DNA of 64,000 nucleotides from Deuterostichococcus epilithicus (Eukaryota > Chlorophyta > Trebouxiophyceae > Prasiolales > Stichococcaceae), in NCBI GenBank assembly GCA_033439295.1, contig JAVTLE010000021.1, positions 3,410,009-3,474,008 on the forward strand. Direction: 5' to 3'. Positions 10,991 to 61,000 of this stretch are shown here, piece after piece. The translations under genes were made by a program, and so were the position numbers. The notes under the pieces are model-generated. The model saw only the letters and a list, made by a program, of their open reading frames with translations, was not told the DNA's origin and made no database searches. The first letter of the stretch is position 1; each line of letters opens with the position of its first letter.

Positions 10991-13900
10991 ATGGAAGACC
11001 CCACCGCCATCGAGCCCATGGAGTTCGACCTCATCGTTGTGGGCACAGGACTGCAAGAGGCGCTACTGGCTGGGTGAGCCAGCTCAGTAGGTTCAGAGCG
11101 GGCCATAACAGAACCACGTCACTGAAATCATGATGTTGAGTGGCGGCTGCTGGCATGCCTTCACGCCGCTCCCTCTGCGGCGGTAACTTAACGCGGGCAG
11201 CACTCCGCACCTGTTGTGCAGCGGTGCCGCACGACAAACCACGGAACAATGCCTTGCCAAGCAGCCTTACGGCGCCTGCAGCACCGAATGTCATACACCC
11301 CGATGCCACCGTACCATGCGAGCCTCCTCAGACAGCTTCCAAGAATGTGGTGTCGCCATGATGCGCAGAGCTGCGGCTCAGGCCGGCAAAAGCGTGCTGC
11401 ACCTGGACCCAGCAGGAAGCTACGGCTCGCACTGGGCGTCCCACCGCCTGGACGGCCTGCTGGCCTGGGCGCACGAACAGCAGCGGCAGGCGGCAGGTGG
11501 GGCGGCAGCCACGCCCAGTGATGCAGAGCAGAGGTGAGCATCCTGCCACTTCACACGGTTCAGTGATCGAACACAGGCCGCTGCAGCTGGTCTGAGGACC
11601 CACGCACAGGACACCGCCCAGCAGCGCCTGGTGATATCCATCATCTTTCCAGGTTGGGGACCTCATGCATGCAAGATCGTGCAACCTGGGGTCCAGGTCT
11701 GCTGCGCCGGAGGTTGTGGCGGTCCCTGCGGACGGCGCGGGCGTCTACTCCCATGTCAGCGTGCGGCAGCGGGAGGGCGCTGACCTGGGCCCCGCCCGCG
11801 AGTACAGCATCGACCTGGCGCCAAAGGTGCCGTTTCAGAGGCCCGCTGCTTTGGGAGGGCTGCGCCCAAGGCGGCCTGTCCTATGGCAGGGGGAGCAGCC
11901 GACCGGCAGTCGATCGGACACTGTAGCTCGTGCATGGTGCTGCTGGATCCAGCCTGCAGAGGCCAAGGCAGTCCGCGGTGTGTCACCCTTGCAGGCGGCG
12001 TTCTGCGCAGGGCCGCTGGTGAAGACGCTGCTGGCGTCCGGAGCGCACAACTACCTGGAGTTCAAGGCCCTGGCCGCCAGGCAAGTGAGATAGCGCCTGT
12101 GCGATCTGGAGGTGATGATCCCTTGCAAGGAGCTCTGGGCTGAGCTCGGCTCTTTGAATTGCAGCAGGTGAATTGCAGTAATGAAACCTCCGCTGCACTT
12201 GTGCAGCTCGAACCAGCTTCCGCCTTATCTGCCCACGTGATTCATCCGGATCCGTCCTTGCAGCTACTTGTGGCGGGAGGGGCGGCTGGTGCCGGTGCCG
12301 GCGACGCGCGCGGACGTCTTTGCGGCCGACGGGCTGAGCCTGCCGCAGCGGCGCGGCCTGATGCGCTTCCTGACGGCGGCGCAGGCCGCAATGCAGGGCG
12401 AAGGCCCGCTCAAGGTGACAGCCTGTTGTCGTGTGCCCGCACGTCCAGCTGGGTCTGGGCACGCTCGTGAGGCGTCATGTATGTTCGACTGGAAGGGCTG
12501 CCCATCTGGTGATGGTCGGCAGCAGCCTGATCGAGATTGATGCCAGATGGTGCCCCGAGGTGGCAAGCGCTGTGCCAGCAAATGGCTGCATGATGGGACT
12601 GCTGTGCTGTCTTGCCTTCGAGTCAGACCAGGCCCGGAGCGGTTCATCTGCTGCTGCACAGGACTCGTTTGACGGGCGACCCTTCGCACAGCTGCTCGCG
12701 GAGCAGGGTTTGAGCCCTGAGGTGCGGGCGCTGCTGCTGTACGCGGTCGCGCTGCTGGAGGCGGACCAGGAGCCGGGCCCGGCTGCGCCGACGCCCATAC
12801 CGGCGGCGGCGGTGCCCGCCGCCGCGCTGGCGGCGGCCGACGGCGCGGCAGCGGCGGGCGCCGCAGCAGCTGGCACTTCGGCGGGGCACGGCGCGCTAAA
12901 CGGCGGCGCCGTGGCTGACGGCGTGGCGGCAGCGGAGCACGCGGCGGCGGCGGCGGCGGCCAACCCGGCCTTTGGCGGCGGCGTCGCGACGGCGGCAGCG
13001 GGACTTGCGGCGCTGCGGCTGTACGTGGAGTCGGCTGGGAAGTATGGACCCGGCACCGGCGCCTTCCTGCTTCCGTACTACGGCGCCGGCGAGCTGCCGC
13101 AGGCATGTCGGCTGCTTGCAGCATCGGGTCGCGTTCCGGCGAGCTGCCGCAGGCATGTCGGCTGCTTGCAGCATCGGGTCGCGTTCCGAGGTTGCCAACG
13201 GGCTCTGGTTTGCTTCTGCGATGTTGTCGTCCACAGCTTGGTGTCCTAGAGCTTGCTGCTGCACTGCACAGCTGCTGCCCTGCGGCGGCGCGCTGAAGCG
13301 GTTGCTGCCGCTGCGCTGCCGGCCACAAAGCCGCGGGTCGGCCCAGGGCAGCATCATGTTGGGATCTGACACACCGTCTCAGATGCACCGTCGGTCTCGG
13401 AGCAGATATGCCAAGGATGCATGTCGCCGTCGGTGCCGGCGGCGCCGCATGGCCTTTTATGTTTGATGCATCGCTCTTGAGGAGATTGGCGCATGGTCGG
13501 TTCCATCCCCAGTGTGCGGCGCAACAGGGTGAGGCGCTGTGCGCCTGAATGCTGGCACCAATGTGTTCTCCTCCCTTGGTTCAATAATCCTGCAGATCCG
13601 CAGAGTCTGGCGTTCAGGCTCTAGAAGCTGGTGTCTGAGCTCGTTGCTCGTGGGCAGTGTACTGGGCGCCTTCAACCACGGGGGCGCTGCTCCTCCTCGA
13701 CCAAGTTTCGGGTGCTGACGTGTCCTGGATCGGCTGCTGGCGCCCAGATGCTGTGGGCTGTGGACTGCAGGCCTTCTGTCGGGTGGCGGCGGTCGCAGGC
13801 GCGTTGTACGTGCTGCGGCGCGGCGTTGCGGCGCTGCTGCTGGAGCCCGCCATCGGCGCCGTGCGCGGGGTGCGCACAGCCACGGGGCAGGAGCTGCGCT

Positions 13901-44676: not shown

Positions 44677-46926
44677 TCAGTCCTGCCGCTGCTGCGCCGC
44701 CGTGCCAGAATCGACTGCGTGGTGTCCTGCTGCGCCATCATCCAGTGGCACATCCGCCACTGCCGACACCTGGCTGAGGCCAGCAGTGGCCACCGCGACC
44801 TGCGCCGCGGCATCGCTGCGGGCCGCTGCCCAGGATTCCTCATTCAGAGCACTCTCCATTAAGTCCCGTCCTCGCTTGCTCGCCGCCGACGCCTCCGCCG
44901 CTGCCGTTCCCGCGTTTGGATCCTGCAGCACCGCGCACAGGTCGCTGAGAGCAGCAGGGCTCACTTGACAGGGGAGGAGCACAGAGGAATGTCCTCTGTC
45001 GACAACACGTGTTTCATTACAGAACGGTCGTTCACAGAACTCTCCCATTCAGTACGACGCTACAAGACGGATGCGAATCCGTGCATTGGTTCGAGTCGTG
45101 TGAGCGAGCCCGCCAGCAGCCCTGGCACTGCTGACGGCGAGCTGCGAGAAGGGCGAGCTGGGGAGAACAATTGGCGAGCTGCGAGAACAATTTGAGGGGC
45201 GCTGGGGACAGGCGCCAAAACACCACTTCCGACTGCCAGCCTCACCGCGCCAGGGCGCAGCACCCGGTGCGGAGACGCGCCCGAGTGGCAGCAGACCGAC
45301 AAACGGTGGGGACAGGACATGGAAAGAACAGCCGCCACTCACCTGCGCACCATCGGGGCGAAGCCCGAGGTCCCCGCCACTGGTGCCCCACCCGGCGTCA
45401 GAGCCCGCGAACGACGGCGAGTGTGCGGCGCGGTGGCCGGTGGAGTGCAGCACCGCCCCCTGCACGTGACCCACCTCCGCGCGCGCCGCCTTGCCATCGT
45501 GGCTGCCAAAGGTGCCCTGCAGCAGCCGGGTAGCCATCAGCGGCAGAAGCCAGAGGCGGCATGCATGCCGGCTGCCCAGCACTGCGTGCGCGGGCTCGCC
45601 GTCATGGCTGGCAGAGGTGGTCCTCTGCACCGGCACCCAGACATGTGCGCATGGAAGCGGACCTTTGAGCACGAAGGCTGCACAGTCACGGATATCAGCT
45701 TCCCGACAATATCAAAGATAAAAACACCAGTGAAGGGCCAGGAGGCTGCAGCGATGCAGGGTGGGTGAGGCACGATGTGATACCTTGCTCAGAGTGGGTG
45801 AGGCACGATGTGATACCTTGCTCGGCTTGGTTCTGCGGCCAGCACCTGGGCACTCCGTCTTGGAATAGTAAGATGAAATTGCCTGTGCAAACTTTCACCT
45901 TCACAGCCTTGAGTGCCTTGGCGACCAGCCCGCCCCCGTGGTGGCCCGGCTGCTTGCCGCCGGCGCGCGGCGACACCGCCGGCCCCGGCAGCGATATGTG
46001 CGCAGGGTGCACGCCGTAGTCGTCGGGGTCTGCAGCCGCAGCACCACTGGCGGCGGCAGCGGCGGCGCTGGCGGCGTCCAGACTGCCGGCGCCGCGGCTG
46101 GTCACGCCAACGCCCATGCGGCCGACCACCTGCCCCGCTGCCAGCGCGTCCTGCATGCCATTTGCACCTCCGTTGGCAACTGCGCTTCCGGTGACAGGCC
46201 TCCACGCCTCCGGCTGGTGGGCGACTGGTGGGTCGCCAGAACCGTGCAAAGACGTGAACGGCCGGGAACAGCGATGCGAGCACGACGGCTCTCCGTCGCG
46301 GGCCACAGCGGCGCCCTGGTACGGTGCAGCACCTCGCCGCTGTGGAGCCCTACCGCTGTTGACTGTACCAGAGGCGGTAGTATTGGACCGTGCGGTTCAT
46401 GGAGTAGCATTGCAACGGCTGCAGGCCGCTCGAGTGTCCAAGGACGATCTGCAACTGCTTCGCAAGGAAAGTCCCCGCATACTGGCGGCAATGGGTACTC
46501 ATGGCATGGCCTGCTGGGGGACGTGAAGGGGCCACCCACCTGCTGCCTGGCCGCCTGACCGACCTGGTGCGTCACCACGTGCGCTGTGAGCGTCGGAAAC
46601 GGCGGCCGCGGCGCCTCGCCATCGGCGTCCCCACCACCATGGGGGGCTGAAGTGAGGTGCGGCCCCGCGACCCACTTCTCAGCGTCTGGCCGCTTGTCCG
46701 AGAAGCTGCGCTGCGGCAGGCGGCTGATGGCTGATTCACGCTCCTTGTTGAAGGAGCCTCGGAGCGCGGTCCTGATGCGCTGCAGGGGGTTGGCGGTGTG
46801 CGGCGGCCGCGCCGCGGGCTCAATACGGTCTGCAAGCGGCAGCGCGGGGTCAGTGGCAGTGGTGCAAAAGCGATGCTCGTTGAAGTGGCTGCAGACAGGC
46901 GGGTGGTCAGCCGCAATGAACTGCAT
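44677..46926 (-). CDS. Ala/Gly-rich protein of unknown function
   Basis: At least four minus-strand exons can be seen. The first (about 46926-46545) ends at a CAG/GTGGGT donor and includes NPLQRIRTALRGSFNKE and SRLPQRSFSDKRPDAEKW. The second (about 46250-45895) includes PDDYGVHPAHISLPGPAV and GGGLVAKALKAVK. The third (about 45625-45345) has two SHDG blocks (SHDGEPAHAVLG, SHDGKAARAEVGHV) and ends GLRPDGAQ at a GTGAGT donor. The last (about 44966-44677) has NEESWAAARSDAA and ends AAQQRQD-stop. The start at 46926 is a guess; the same frame is open to 47199. I recognise no domain, signal peptide or membrane span. The basic, Ser/Arg-rich first exon could be disordered or regulatory. Coding status rests on consistent composition and good donors and acceptors, not on homology. 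Confidence 0.5.
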
Positions 46927-51286: not shown

Positions 51287-54200
51287 ATGGCGTCTTCAGC
51301 CGTGCTAGGCTCCAGCGTGGGCGCGACAGCCTCTGCTGTCCGCAAGCAGGCCGTGCAGGCGCCATGTGCCTTGTCTGGCGGCCTCACTAAGTCCAGCAGT
51401 CAGAAGGTGCTCCCTCACAAATTCCCAGTGTTCTGAAACTTGTGTTGCATGGATCCCAAATGAAGGCGATGCGTATGCTCGAGCATTCGACATTCTCGAG
51501 TTGTCCTGCAGCTCGCGCGATCTGGCCACCTGCCCCGTGAACTGGCTGATCGCACCGGTGCCCTCACCTCGAATCACTCACAAACATGCACAGGCGTCTC
51601 TGACGAGGTGTCTGCGCACCAGCAACCCCTTCAGGCAATCACGCCCCTGCGCCAGGCAGAGCCTCCAAGTGAAGGTGACTGCTTGCATGTTGCCAGATGG
51701 CGATCGCCATCATTCCAGCGTCCACGCAAGCTGACTGAAGTCCCTGAAGCTCGAACCGTATGCCTGCAATGCAGCGGGCGCCCTTCGCACAGTGTGCATT
51801 TGCTGTGCGCATGAGCGGGATGCGCAGATGTTGATCTGTTAATCATTTACTCTAAACACCGCCTACATACCCCTTTTCTGTCTCTCCAGGCTGCTGGCGA
51901 CGAGGACTACTCGATGTCCACGCTGACGACCTGGCTTCTCAAGGTCAGTTGCTGCGCTTGCTCTGAGCACATGGAAGGCGTGGTGCTGAGTCAGAGCAAC
52001 ACACACTAACCAAAAATCAATCCGTATTGTCAGCTGAAACAGAAACGCGCTTGCCGTTCCGTGCAACAGGAGGAGGCGGCGGGCAATGTCGACAGCGAGC
52101 TGGCAACGGTCATCTCGTCCATTGCGGTCGCCTGCAAGCAGATCGCCAGCCTGGTAAGCGCAACTCCATCGGCGAACACGCGTTTGGCGGGGTGCACGCA
52201 TGTGTGCGCAGCGCGGCGGACAAGCCCTAAGGAATGGAGTCGCAGAGGAGGCGGGAGAAGGCAGCAGGGGCTGAGGCTGCAGTTCATCGCGCACAGACAA
52301 AATGCAGCGGGACGGCCTTGTGCCGCCACCGCATGCCTCCAGAGGTCCGGGAGGCAGACTGGAAGGAGGGGGAGGATCAGGTCGGCAGCGCAGAAAGCCT
52401 GAAAGCACAGGTAGCAGTGCAGACAGGGACGCGGCCGGGGCGTCGGCCCGGGCACCAGACATGCATGCTGCATGACCCTAAACCCTACGCGGCCCCAGCG
52501 CCGGCAGCGTTGCACCACTTCCTTGCCGCCCCCCTCGACACAGGCTCAGAGGCACACTGGGTCTGGATCCTCGACACCCCACCGAGAGTTCAAAGCACCC
52601 GCTGCCGTGCCTGCCCGCAGGTTAACCGCAGCGGCATCTCCAACCTGACAGGGCTGGCGGGCGTCGCCAACATCCAGGGTGAGGACCAGAAGAAGCTGGA
52701 CGTCGTGTCCAACACCGTCTTCTGCAACGCTCTGCGTGCCTCCGGCCGCACGGTGAGCTAAACGCTAACAGAGCGATCCAACCCCTCACCCAGCCGTCCT
52801 CACTGTGTGGGCTGACGTCAGTCTTTGCAGCTGCACCTCAACAATGTCCTCTCCGTGAAGCCTGCACGCCTCTGGCTGCGCGATGAGCTGCCTTGATTGC
52901 CAAGCCATTTTGCACACTAGCTTGCAAAAGATGCAGCACGAGCCCTCCTGAACCAATTGACGGCTATGCAATGAGGTGCCTAACAAGAGCCACAAAGGCA
53001 GCACAGAGCTTAGTGGCAGCGGCTGCGGCGCTGCCGGCAGCGGCGCAGGATTGTCGCAAGGCTGCCTTATTGCCACGATGCCGTGTTTCTGGTGTTTCTC
53101 ATGTCTGATCCCAAGCTGTGAGACGGAGACGCTGTAGGACCTGCTGAGCGGCCAGATGTCGGGGCCAGGGCTTGCGGAATGGCATGCGGCCCACAGTGAA
53201 GGCGCGCTGCAGGGCCTCACGACAGGCGGTGCTATTGCCTGCATGCGCTGCGCAGCAGGCCCACCGTGCCATCGCTTTGGCCACCCGCGGTGATCAGCGG
53301 GGAGCCCCTGGCAACTGCACATTTGCCAAAAGCAGCCGCCAGAACATTGGCACCCAGTGTTCGACCCGTTGGAAAGGAGGGCGCACCTGATGGAGTGTTC
53401 GGCCTTGGGCCCCCGCAGCGAACGACCCCCACTGCCCAAATAACCACTTCTGTGGTACGCCATCGCCTTGGCCGATGACCTGCCGATCGCGGTGTGGAAG
53501 AGACCTTCAGCAGCAGTCCTTGTCGCTCGATGACTCAACCAGTCAGTCACTCTGCAGTGCGCAATCCTGCGGGGCACCATCGCGCGGGAGGACTGGGATG
53601 GCGGTGAAGGAGGCTTTCAGCGGCAGCCCTACATGGGCTGCTTTTCACTCTTCCAGTCTCATCACCCAAGTGTGCAACACACCTACAGGGCACCAGCGCG
53701 TCCGAAGAGGAGGACCTCCCTGTAGCGGAGGAAATCTTCTCACTTCTGCAGTCTCGATTATCTAAATCCGCAATTCCATATCCTGCAGGGCACCATCGCG
53801 TCCGAGGAGGAGGACCTCCCTGTAGCGGTGGAGGAGACCTTCAGCGGCAACTACGTCGTGGTCTTCGACCCGCTCGACGGCAGCTCGAACCTGGACGCGG
53901 GCATCTCCACCGGCTCCATCTTCGGCATCTACGACCCCAACGACGAGTGCTCCCTGGAGGTGAAGCGCCGATTGGTCATTAGATTTCAACTCGGAGTAAT
54001 CACACCAGAGAGGGGGTTTCCTTGCATGTCGCGTGTGTTGGCTTCCCGGCCGGCTGTGCAGCGGGAGTCTCTGACGGAATGGCGCAGTCGCCCCACCCTG
54101 GCGCACTGCTGACGACATTGTTTCTCACCCTGTGCCCGGCGTCTGGGCCGAAAGGTGGTCAGAGGAGCAGTTTTTCTTGTCGGCAGCAGCGGACTGTCCG

Positions 54201-56534
54201 GCTATGGCGGGCGCTACCCCGCAGCCCCGGCGCTTGCCCCGAGGCCGGCTGACGGCCCTCCCGTTGATCGCCAGACGACCCGTTAACACTGGCCCCGCAG
54301 GACATGGACGACCCAGAGCAGATGATGAAGAACTGCGTGCTCAATGTGTGCCAGCCAGGTGAGCCCGACCACAAACACAAGCCCTGATCGGCCCGAGCCG
54401 CTGCGTCGCATCTGTGCCAGAAACTGCTGCACACGGGCCGCATGGACCGCGACCTCACATCTGCAGTCGACTGGCCTGAATGCTCCGCACAGCTTGCAGC
54501 CCCCGGGCTGTGCTTCCACATCATATCCCGCGCTTGCCTTCCCGCAGGCACCAGTCTGCTGGGGGCGGGTTACTGCCTGTACTCGTCCTCCACGGTGCTG
54601 GTCCTCACGCTCGGCAACGGCGTCCAGGGCTTCACCTACGACTCCAACGTCGGCGAGTTCATCCTGAGCCACCCCGACGTGCAGATCCCGGACAAGGGCC
54701 CCATCTACTCCTTCAACGAGGGCAACTACGGGGTACGGCATTTGCAAAAAATGTGTACAGCAATCAATAGTGTATTATGGGTACACCCTCGTTCAGCGTG
54801 CCATGACCTGAAATTGCCAACAGGTCACCACGTGGCGACAGGGCAAGGCAACCTCTCGGCTTGGAATGCTCTGCATGTCCGGCGCATTGCGGGTGCATGC
54901 GCAAGGCAGTATCAGCTGTGTGATTCTGTGACCGGTTCACAGGCCAGTGAAACCGGGTTCTCTGTGCAGTTCCTGGAATCCGAAACTGTTCTCGTCAGCG
55001 CCTCGCTTGGCGCCGCTCAGAGCCGGCATTGGACCTTTAGCAGTTCATGCACAGCCTTGTCCTGGCATGGCTGTGACCCTGTCCTTTAACTTTTACACCA
55101 ATTCTGTGGCCTGGCGGCCCGTCGGGTTGCGAGGCGGCGCCGAAGCCGCAGCCTTGAATGGGCAGCCTGAGACGGGTCAATACCTTCCGATATGATTGCT
55201 GGCCATGTTCTTGACCTGCTTCCACCCAAATGCCTTGGTAGGGTCAAGCGCCGGAGCTGCAATGCGTGGAAAGCCAAAAGGGCAGCCTCCGCCTGAGAAC
55301 GAATTCTCATGACCATATGGACCCAGTACTGATCTGTTTCTGACTTGTTTCTGAAGTGGTTTCTTTCGCCTGCAGAGCTGGGCCCCGGAGCTGCAGCAGT
55401 ACATGGACAGCCTGAAGGGCACTGACAACCCGGCGGGCAAGCCCTACACCTCCCGCTACATTGGCAGCCTGGTGCGCTGCCGGCTTGGTTCCCGCTCCCG
55501 TTGTGCGTCTGCGTGCATCTCGCCAGTGCTGTGTGCTGGTCTGCAGATGGGCTTGCTTGCGTCAGGTGACCTGGATCTGGGAGTGCCTGTACAGCACCTG
55601 GGTCGAGTTGCTTGAGACGACGGCCCTGCCGTCGCCTTCGACCCTAAACCTTGACCCCTAAACCCTTTGATATCTTCGCGGTGCACCGCTTGCGGAGCGC
55701 AACCGGAGACCCTGGCGTTTCGCCTCCCCGGCTTCACCCTGGCTGAACGAGTCCCTGAACAGACCCCCAGCAAAGCCCTCCCGCCGCCCGCAGGTGGGCG
55801 ACTTCCACCGCACGATGCTGTACGGCGGCATCTACGGCTACCCGGCGGACGCCAAGAACAAGACCGGCAAGCTGCGGCTGCTGTACGAGTGCGCGCCCAT
55901 GTCCATGATCGCCGAGCAGGTGCGCTGTCACCTTACTGCTCCTGTCTCCCCCTGCCGACCCTGTTGGTGCCTACACCTTCACGGCAGAGCCCTGTGATGG
56001 AAGAGGCGTGGGGAACCAAGAAGAGGATGGGAACTCAGCCAAGGCACTGGCCCTGCCGCCTGCGTTTCCGCACGAGTCGCAGTAACCTCGCACTAACCTC
56101 ATCTCAAAGGCTGATCGATGACACCTCGCCCGCCCGCCGCTGCCCTGCAGGCTGGCGGCAAGGGCTCCGACGGCGGCAAGCGTGTCATGGAGGTGCAGCC
56201 AGAGCAGGTATGTCACCTCGACAGCCCCTCAATGCCTCGCCAGCAAGGCGCTTCCCCCTTGCTGTGGGCTTCCTTGCTGGGAGCGCTCAGCCCCGGTGCT
56301 GGCCCGTCCCGCCTCCCGGAGGGAGCACCAGCTGGCATCCACACAGCATCTGTGACTGACGGCCCGTCTGCCGTGTCGGCAGTTTCGCGCGGGCGGCGCA
56401 GTGGCCCCTGAAACTAGTGCGCCGCTGCCGCCCTCAACCCCCTAAACCCTGCCCTGCAGGTCCACCAGCGGGTGCCGCTGTTCGTCGGCTCCAAGGGCGA
56501 GGTCGAGTACCTGGAGTCCTTCCTGAACAAGTGA
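51287..56534 (+). CDS. Chloroplast fructose-1,6-bisphosphatase, redox-regulated type
   Basis: This Calvin-cycle enzyme hydrolyses fructose-1,6-bisphosphate to fructose-6-phosphate in the stroma. Eleven exons close in phase: 51287-51406, 51890-51943, 52070-52153, 52621-52752, 53789-53959, 54301-54358, 54548-54732, 55376-55471, 55794-55919, 56151-56207, 56460-56534; 385 residues. A transit peptide of about 40 residues precedes STLTTWLLK. Conserved blocks are [25 protein letters not shown], the metal-binding [20 protein letters not shown], the AGYCLYSS block, [23 protein letters not shown], and [12 protein letters not shown]. The regulatory loop keeps its cysteines (NDEC, NC, NVCQPG), which in the plastid enzyme form the thioredoxin-f-controlled disulfide, so light activation is inferred. 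Intron 4 (52753-53788) carries decayed copies of exon 5. Telomere-like CCCTAAA motifs occur in three introns. Confidence 0.97.
52476..52487 (+). repeat. Telomere-like CCCTAAACCCTA in an FBPase intron
   Basis: One and a half units of the plant-type telomere repeat, 133 bp before the exon at 52621. Similar motifs lie at 55642-55666, 56438-56450 and, as CCCTAAATCCC, at 14208-14218 in the Rab escort protein gene. Confidence 0.7.
53489..53745 (+). repeat. Decayed partial copies of FBPase exon 5 within the preceding intron
   Basis: Three segments resemble the start of exon 5 (53789 on). Copy C, 53682-53740, keeps a CTACAG acceptor and reads [15 protein letters not shown] against the true [16 protein letters not shown]. 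Copy B, about 53568-53630, keeps GGCACCATCGCG and GGCTTTCAGCGGCAG but has lost the middle. Copy A, about 53489-53515, keeps only GCGGTGTGGAAGAGACCTTC. None continues into the substrate-site sequence, so they are non-functional relics or cryptic exons. Confidence 0.85.
55642..55666 (+). repeat. Telomere-like CCCTAAA pair in an FBPase intron
   Basis: CCCTAAACC at 55642-55650 and CCCCTAAACCCT at 55655-55666, in the intron 55472-55793. A further CCCCTAAACCCT at 56438-56450 lies about 10 bases before the last acceptor and could supply its branch point. Confidence 0.75.
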
Positions 56535-58075: not shown

Positions 58076-61000
58076 TCAGAAACCACACACCGAAGGGCCC
58101 CCAGATCGCACCTTCGGTGCCGATTCCCACCCCGCAGCGGCCGCCTCCCGGTGCGCCTCATCCTCCGGAATCGGCGGCGCCATTTCGTACGGCGCGGCGT
58201 CCAGTTCCCGCAGGTGCTCACGCTTGAAGAAACGCGGCATGACGTACTGGCGGAAGGGTACCTGTGGTGCAAGAGAAGGAATCAGACTTCGGGTCCGATG
58301 GGGCCCACGGCTGGCATGGGGCTCCAGTGCGCGCCATGTTGAGGGAAGGGGTGGGCTGTGCATCTTGCAGATTGCAGCTGGTGAGGCGGCTGGAGGGCGA
58401 CACATGAGGCGGCGTGTTGCACCAAGAGCAGAAGGCAAGCGTGCCGCTTGCGCAGTTTGCGCTGGAGTATATTGTGCTGGAGGACAGGGGCCAGGTGGAA
58501 GGCGGAAGGAGGATGCGCAGCTCACCAGCGCCATGATGAACACTGGGAAAATGACACCCACGATCTGCAGGCAACAGCGAGCGACGCGTCAGTCAAAGCC
58601 ACGCTACAGCTTGACCTCAGCTTGCTGGGGCAGCTGCGTAGGATACCACATGATTTGCCTGCCAATGAACTGACACACCATGACACACATCGCATCGTAA
58701 CACACATTATACAATGGCGATACACCCTAGGATTACGAGTACAACGAGCAGAAAAGTTAGGTTGCGGCGCACCCCGGCCCAGGTGATGCCGTATACGGCA
58801 CCCAGGCCGGCCAGTTGCAGCAGCGTGAAGGCGGTGATGACGCGGAATGGCACCGTCTCGATGTACGGCGAGTGCCCTCGCTCCAACAGGCTGCGACATT
58901 ATTCATGAATGAGTGAGCTTGTCAAGGCAGAGCTTTCACAGTCTCGTCATGCGAAGGTGCAGAGCTTTGACAGTCTCGACATGCGAGGGTGCTGAAACAT
59001 CCGATGATGCTGAACAGCGCCCCGAACCGCGCCGCAACACCCGCAAGGGGCACGACTGGAAGCGAACCAAGGGCCACAGCGCTGCTTGTGACGGCAGAAA
59101 GACACGCCACGGATCTGCGCCGGCGCCTGGCAACACCAACGGAAAGTCTGACGCCAACGAGCTGCTTCGGCACACGCCGCGCCAAGGAAGCGGACAGCGG
59201 AGGAGGAGAGGGCGCGCTCACGCGTAGCGCTTGCGCGGGTCGGTGAACAGCAGCAGCAGGCGGTCCCAGAACTGGCTGCCGGGCAGGGAGTCCGCCGCCA
59301 TGTAGGCAAAGTAGCCCCACAGCACGGAGCTGGGGATGAACTTCAGGCCTGGCGTGATGCCTGCACGGCGGCAGGGCCACGGCCGTTTAGCAGCACGCGA
59401 TGCGGGTCAGGCTATGGCTGCCCAAGCCGCGATGCAGGCGAGCGCGGCGAGTCGTGGGGCTTTGCCCTCCGAGTGACAAATTGGATTATTGAGCTTGACT
59501 CATGGCAGCCTCCGGTCGGCACGGGCACAGACACCTCAGGACAGCGTCCTGCCGATGCGGACACCAGAACACTCGTGGCAGATCAGATGATGCAGCGAGA
59601 CAGTCCCACCGAGGCATGCCCTAGAGCAGGCCCTGCATCAGCCCGCTCACGCGCTGCTCCTCGACCACCAGCTGTACCGCCGGGACCCCTCATGGCAGAG
59701 TCAGGTGGCGCGGCAAGGACACCCACCGAGGCATGCGCCGCAGAGCAGGCTCTGCAGCAGCCCGCTGACGCGCTGCTCCTGGACCTCAACCGGCAGCACC
59801 GCGGCGTCCAGCTCCCGCTCCGCGTCAAAGCCGCCGCCGCCGCGGCCTGCGACCGGCACGTCGCCGGGCCCGGCGCCCGACGTGGTCGTGCTGGGCATGC
59901 TGTGGGGGCCGCCTGCGCAGATGGATTGGGAACGCAAGGTCCTGGCTGCGGCACCAGCCGTGTACGTATCTGCAGCACTTCGAATTTTGCATTTTGCAGG
60001 CACGAGGAGGCTGGCAGATGTGTAGGTGTGAGACAGACGGCAGAGCAGGTAGCTCCAGTGCGCGCACTTGCGGCGCCATCCTCCATGCGCCCGGTGCGCG
60101 TGGTTTCCGGCAGCGCCTCCAGCGCGCCGGCCGCCAGCGAGTTGATCTGCCGCCCCTTCTCGATCATGGCGTCGAAGACCTCGCCGCGGCTCTCGCCCTC
60201 GTGCTCCTCCGCGGCTGCAGGACACCGAATCGCACCCTAACTGACCTGCTGGATGAACTCTGTTCTTCTGTGCGGGCACAGCTATTTGGTGGTGCAGGTT
60301 CAAGACCCGTGACAGAGCAGAGACCGTGACAGAGCAGAGGAGTCCACAGCAGAGGTGAGTCGCGCAGTGTCCGGGCCCAGCGAGCAAGGCTGCACAGCAG
60401 CGCTGTGTCAGCAGAAAATCCTCAGCGAGAAGTGGCAGCGGATGGCGCACTTTTCTTGAGCGCGTCCCTCACGATCTGCTGCTTTAGCGTCGCCAGGCTG
60501 CGCGTATGCATGGGAGCCTGTGCCACGGCAATCACGTGCTGAGCTCTTCAGAAATGAACATGTTTGTCGCACCTGCATGTCCTACAGGCTGTAGCGGAGG
60601 TGTCGGCTCGGTGATGCAGCGTTCGGGGTGCAGGTGAAACGCTTTAACGCTTTTTCACGTTCAGAATGAGCACCTGCGGCAGCACGCCATTGATGGGCGG
60701 CAGCCCGAGGAGGCCAAAGGCAGCGGTGATGAGCCCCAGCAGTGCAAAATCGTAATTATACGCCGGCGGCTTCTTGAGGTTGAATTCCGGTGCCTGCGCT
60801 TGGAAACAGCCGAGAAAAAGGTGAGCGCCCCAGCCACACCGCCAGCATAGCGCCCTGGCACGTCCGCAACTCCTCGCCATGCAAGTCATGTTCGACATCC
60901 TTTAGAGGAAAAGATGAGATGAATAACACTTCAAATGCACCTGGGCTAGCTGCGATGACACGCTGTGGTCGAAGTAGAACAGGATGGTGATGATGAGTGC

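Follow-up and report, generated by a model that had tools for sequence, protein, structure and literature searches.

Three decayed copies of an exon start in an intron of a green algal plastid-type FBPase gene, probable relics of serial short tandem duplications

The window, i.e. the whole stretch of 64,000 nt of DNA that was analysed, is part of contig C18 of a genome of 46.8 Mb in 21 contigs, and contains a FBPase gene whose joined 12-exon coding sequence is, in the gene model, an intact reading frame of 412 aa (Table 1). A 228-aa part of the protein matches FBPases in PDB, the best being 5iz1_A (E=2.7e-100). The entries 5iz1_A, 1spi_A, 1d9q_A and 1dbz_A, which we take to be plant or plastid FBPases, fall between 2.7e-100 and 6.8e-93, and the next one, 4gws_A, is found at 3.2e-47. 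Plant-type FBPases are a nearer match than other FBPases, and the gene is classed as plastid-type by this comparison, which makes a green alga the most likely host. Exon 5 ends at 52752, exon 6 matches the Pfam FBPase family (E=5e-16), and both introns flanking exon 6 have GT..AG ends in the model. The first two exons, in the transit-peptide region, were placed by splice signals and open frame alone, and for this reason the numbering of exon 6 is model-dependent. A previous reading of the same DNA, made from the sequence only, had counted this exon as the fifth; it is the sixth in the model that gives the intact protein.

Motifs resembling CCCTAAACCC were noticed by eye in introns of the FBPase gene, at 52475-52486, 55642-55667 and 56440-56449, and are similar to the TTTAGGG repeat of contig ends. 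Among the four contig ends viewed, TTTAGGG arrays are clear at the end of C18 and at the start of C5, the array at the start of C18 is short and degenerate, and none was found at the start of C3.

Table 1. Location of the genes, exons and candidate relics discussed in the text. Positions refer to the window, unless another locus is given; a slash marks a splice boundary.
Feature	Position	Strand	Remarks
Plastid-type FBPase gene	51287..56534	+	12 exons, 412 aa
Host intron 5	52753..53788	+	1036 nt, gene model
Functional exon 6 of the FBPase gene	53789..53959	+	phase 0, acceptor cctgcag/GGC
Marginal piece	53357..53389	+	similar to bases 73-105 of the exon; excluded from the copies
Relic copy 1, exon start	53456..53515	+	AG of the acceptor lost (tgtgg); the most decayed copy
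Intron part of copy 2	53528..53572	+	against the true intron end, score reached by 6/500 shuffles
Relic copy 2, exon start	53573..53625	+	acceptor AG lost (tgcgg); internal gaps relative to the exon
Intron part of copy 3	53641..53688	+	its final 45 nt align to the 45 nt that precede the true acceptor
Relic copy 3, exon start	53689..53739	+	CAG retained; 39 ungapped nt of 95% identity, followed by a gap of 3 nt
End of boron-transporter-like exon	59718..59802	-	donor CTCG/GTGGGT
Decayed donor-side relic, exon end and donor	59599..59680	-	in the next intron, downstream
SBPase gene relics	L033 5540-5940 (C5:43001-53000)	-	on both sides of one exon

Intron 5 contains three copies of the first ~50-60 nt of exon 6. 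They are local direct repeats with the order kept, and the exon starts in the array are spaced by 117, 116 and 100 nt. Copies had been placed at 53489..53745 by the sequence-only reading; they are present there, and copy 1 starts earlier, at 53456. Their significance was evaluated by dinucleotide shuffling of each segment (n=2000), using stricter gap costs. The segments that contain copies 1, 2 and 3 score 36, 48 and 84 against exon 6 plus 53 nt of intron, and 36, 35 and 73 against exon 6 alone, the shuffle maxima being 25-28. The sequence-only reading had described three copies of the exon start in the upstream intron, and had named alignments no better than those of shuffled sequence as the result that would speak against them; the comparison was made, and no shuffle reached the score of any of the copies (0/2000 each). 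A 360-nt control stretch located upstream showed no copy, its score being reached in 1639 and 659 out of 2000 shuffles.

Chance similarity, or low-complexity matching, has to be considered in a GC-rich genome (GC 0.625), and the choice of gap costs bears on it. When loose gap costs were used, 500 shuffles gave a mean score of 37.7 and a maximum of 63: the matches holding copy 3 (80) and copy 1 (67) exceed the shuffles, the best match in copy 2 (46) stands at about the 95% point, and the piece at 53357 (34) falls, together with weaker matches, below the shuffled mean. The standing of copy 2 with loose costs is in line with chance, but no copy is matched by shuffles under the stricter costs, and no hit of score at least 45 was obtained from three shuffles of the 264-kb sample described below. 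The result with stricter costs rules out chance as the source of copies 1-3, and its probability is judged to be negligible. For the piece at 53357-53389, whose score was reached by 40 and 65 of 2000 shuffles, the case is marginal: it is possibly an older piece, with chance as the default reading.

The decay of the copies is graded, as previously described. The exon part of copy 1 has an identity of 0.75 over 57 positions with 6 gap columns, that of copy 2 reaches 0.94 over 50 with 14 gap columns, and that of copy 3 reaches 0.95 over 39 ungapped nt, a block picked after the alignment had been viewed. The claim that the copy nearest to the exon keeps an acceptor also stood up, as CAG is found at copy 3, against TGG at copy 1 and CGG at copy 2.

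Repeated local duplication had been proposed with the exon start as its unit; the first part holds, while the unit has to be enlarged, since the alignments extend into the intron ahead of the acceptor. For copy 3, the intron part aligns to the true intron end with an identity of 0.78 and 10 gap columns, a score reached by 0/500 shuffles; that of copy 2 is given in Table 1, and that of copy 1 is individually non-significant (32/500 shuffles). When intron parts were compared with each other, the score was reached by 1/500 shuffles for copies 3 and 2, and by 217/500 for copies 2 and 1. Judging from the alignments, the duplicated unit spans the splice acceptor in copies 3 and 2, because the repeat takes in ~45 nt of the preceding intron, and possibly does so in the oldest copy; both the presence of an intron part in each copy and the count of events are based on copies 2 and 3. 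At the other border, past the motif TTCAGCRGCA, GYCCT is common to copies 1 and 2, exon 6 continues with ACTAC and copy 3 breaks off earlier. Two different junctions are suggested by this pattern, one inherited by copies 1 and 2, the other produced by a separate, later event for copy 3. Beyond the exon parts, the tails show weak alignment at best, scores being reached by 49/1000 shuffles for copies 1-2 and by 239/1000 for copies 2-3.

The three segments are best explained, with a probability of roughly 0.87, as relics of serial short tandem duplications, each unit spanning the acceptor. At least two, and more likely three, successive events would have occurred, each involving a unit of ~100-117 nt in which ~45-50 nt from the 3' end of intron 5 are followed by ~50-65 nt from the start of exon 6. 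Every event would leave two tandem acceptors in the transcript. The duplication would be tolerated, at small cost, because splicing at the last acceptor restores the normal mRNA; the displaced, earlier exon start would become intron and decay, the oldest copy being the most decayed. As a net result, intron 5 would have been lengthened by roughly 330 nt. Splicing is predicted at 53788/53789, and the order and number of the events are likely ones. Copying probably proceeded from exon 6 to the relics, because it is the exon 6 copy that encodes conserved protein. At the DNA level, break repair with fill-in, or slippage, may have generated the duplications.

An exon 6 starting at the last acceptor yields the intact 412-aa protein. 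Use of the copy 3 acceptor, with read-through, would add 100 nt and shift the frame, with a stop codon in exon 9, at residue 345; an in-frame cassette of 33 nt (11 aa, no stop) would instead need the donor CCT/GTAGCG. Cryptic-exon use of copies 1 and 2 appears unlikely, because their acceptor AG is lost. Splicing of the copy 3 acceptor at some level, resulting either in a degraded, frame-shifted transcript or in an in-frame insertion of 11 aa, is given a slim chance. Such use would fit the CAG kept at the boundary, the stop-free cassette, and a higher identity in the exon part (0.95) than in the intron part (0.78), a difference found in 2.6% of comparable cases in a neutral simulation. However, the 39-nt block was chosen with the alignment already in view, AG is gone from copies 1 and 2, and the copy 3 acceptor ends in tacag, against tgcag or cgcag in 8 of the 11 acceptors of the gene. 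Moreover, the GTAGCG donor is also found inside the real exon 6, where the conserved protein reads through it and where it is presumably not used.

Local direct duplicates were also searched for in a sample of 264 kb, made up of the window and twenty 10-kb pieces of C18. A diagonal scan, covering periods of 25-700 nt, replaced self-BLAST, which missed perfect tandem copies near the main diagonal (e.g. 13086-13188). Such duplicates proved to be frequent in the genome: the scan revealed 25 clusters, with best periods of 25-166 nt, of which 17 come from the pieces and 8 from the window, which is a non-random sample because the finding itself came from it. Three local dinucleotide shuffles of the 264 kb gave no duplicate hits, and one hit was obtained in the real sequence at periods of 701-1375 nt. 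Ten clusters were viewed in detail and eight as alignments only. Seven of the ten were read as an exon edge that is repeated in the neighbouring intron: the FBPase gene, a boron-transporter-like gene, locus L014 (two cases), and L016, L019 and L021 (one case each). The remaining three, i.e. a second L021 cluster, L029 and the window segment 39012-39134, are ambiguous in layout. Gene homology supports only the FBPase and boron-transporter-like cases among the seven, and none of the six exons defined by reading frame only (five clear cases from the other loci, plus the second L021 cluster) has a Pfam match. At L019 8289-8594, where no Pfam match was found for the exon, there are apparently three exon-start copies ~120 nt apart, the middle one seen by eye, in the same layout as in FBPase.

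For comparison, 20 protein-kinase exons were taken down a list of 146 Pfam matches, skipping stop-bearing rows and one row inside an already chosen region, and were analysed with 600 nt on each side. No exon-edge relic of score at least 45 was found at any of them; the highest local repeat is one exact repeat of 17 nt, 144 nt apart (L043, score 34). None of the 20 exceeded the best swapped-flank score, in a control inflated by the related kinases that the swapped flanks hold. The idea that every exon carries relics was rejected on this count (0/20): relics are recurrent in this genome, yet not universal.

Two young tandem duplications were observed in the window. One, at 13086-13188, has a period of 50 and is 100% identical; the other, at 45757-45823, has a period of 33 and is 97% identical. 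The match extends only 3 nt and 1 nt, respectively, beyond the period, which would mean little microhomology at the junctions.

In the boron-transporter-like gene, the relic reproduces the exon end with an identity of 0.90 and the intron part with 0.77, each reached by 0/500 shuffles; it is interrupted by a stop and by small gaps. When joined to the next exon, the exon matches PDB Boron transporter 1 (E=4.8e-27); the next exon matches Pfam HCO3_cotransp (E=2.4e-10), and no Pfam match was found for the exon alone. The case is the mirror image of the FBPase one, on the donor side. Both sides are represented in a SBPase gene, a non-random pick, fetched on purpose as a FBPase relative and identified by 5iz3_A, named sedoheptulose-1,7-bisphosphatase (E=2.7e-18). 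Here an exon-start copy lies 122 nt upstream (identity 0.93, intron part 0.68) and an exon-end copy is placed in the next intron, 108 nt downstream (exon 0.76, intron 0.78). By eye, a further short, older-looking piece lies upstream, and the differences in the exon-start copy are at third codon positions (4/4). Among three purposely fetched FBPase-family loci scanned at threshold 33, a relic of the family exon was found in this one and none in L031 and L032. At L014 6816-7113, the second L014 case, an intron end and exon start are duplicated (exon part 0.89, intron part 0.69). Here the changes in the clear exon stretch are all at third positions (6/6, by eye, two end differences being left out), and this copy was possibly under constraint for a time.

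In four chosen cases the identities of exon and intron parts are 0.95/0.78, 0.90/0.77, 0.89/0.69 and 0.93/0.68. A neutral simulation, in which the functional exon was constrained and relics had to pass the same detection threshold, assigned them probabilities of 0.026, 0.17, 0.10 and 0.014, values which depend on guessed constraint and indel rates and on hand-picked cases and are no more than suggestive. Exon parts may decay unexpectedly slowly, and the duplication history does not account for their preservation above the simple neutral model in these four cases. Conversion of the exon parts of relics, or constraint on them, is possible. Gene conversion between exon and relic, by which exon parts would stay similar after the intron parts diverge, agrees with exon parts at 0.89-0.95 against intron parts at 0.68-0.78, with the simulated probabilities, and with the third-position differences in SBPase and in the second L014 copy. 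It has nonetheless to face the hand-picking of the four cases, a boron-transporter relic which carries a stop and in which, by eye, most differences fall on first and second codon positions, and a SBPase donor-side pair without difference between exon and intron; its probability is considered low. Both conversion and use of the copy 3 acceptor are compatible with an origin by duplication. A broader proposal holds splice-site-spanning tandem duplication to be a standing source of intron growth in this alga, with displaced exon starts that are not wholly dead: their exon parts would stay similar for a while, either through gene conversion with the exon or through selection acting on tandem acceptors that, when used, would give non-productive transcripts. 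We regard it as rather unlikely.

Under the preferred reading, that of serial tandem duplications, the FBPase array would represent a clear case of intron lengthening without transposons, and duplications straddling a splice site would be nearly harmless, through splicing at the outermost site. A single relic array is ordinary; a modest extra interest derives from the several traces left by the same process in this genome, where both acceptor-side and donor-side examples are found. If exon parts truly decay more slowly than intron parts, conversion, or selection on unproductive splicing, could be sought at tandem splice sites.

Tandem exon duplication giving rise to mutually exclusive exons is a known system, in which, as in FBPase, exon sequence is copied locally. 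The FBPase copies differ in being decayed and in including the exon start only, without the exon's own donor. No description of exon-edge relics in green algal introns was found among the matches listed, which were judged by title or opening of the abstract and whose coverage of the literature is partial, and such relics are not mentioned in the intron passages available from the Coccomyxa genome paper (PMC3446292).

Small tandem duplications are reported as products of break repair in mammalian cells, and repair of double-strand breaks, perhaps from nearby opposing single-strand breaks, is the source suggested for humans and plants (PMC8355091, in excerpt). Like the FBPase copies, those duplications are, as far as the excerpt describes them, short, local and head-to-tail. 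They are fresh, Cas9-induced events, whereas the FBPase units, of ~100-117 nt, are too decayed for the junctions to be read; break repair may thus serve only as a lead to the mechanism in FBPase.

Intron gain through duplication of an exonic AGGT segment is known from Rogers 1989 and Hellsten 2011, as described in PMC4974935, and the origin of new introns by tandem duplication is presented for Drosophila in Lehmann 2010 (PMC2891723). AGGT intron gain and the FBPase array have in common that a duplication is neutralised by splicing, one copy being intronic. In FBPase, in contrast, an existing acceptor was apparently duplicated and an old intron lengthened, and no intron position was created. 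An intron gain of the AGGT type was rejected for FBPase, the copies being located, in the gene model, within one intron and before the acceptor.

The closest published case found is that of the potato RdRp gene, in which a tandem duplication crosses the boundary of intron 1 and exon 2 (PMC4974935). Both genes have duplicated the 3' side of an intron together with the 5' side of the next exon, and in both most splice signals would be inherited with the unit. The new intron of potato RdRp combines a short segment of the upstream copy that was once exonic with the intron part of the downstream copy (PMC4974935). In FBPase, unlike in potato, the upstream exon starts would have turned into intron sequence, and the event would have recurred without any evident gain of a new intron. 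Set beside the potato case, the FBPase array is ordinary in kind.
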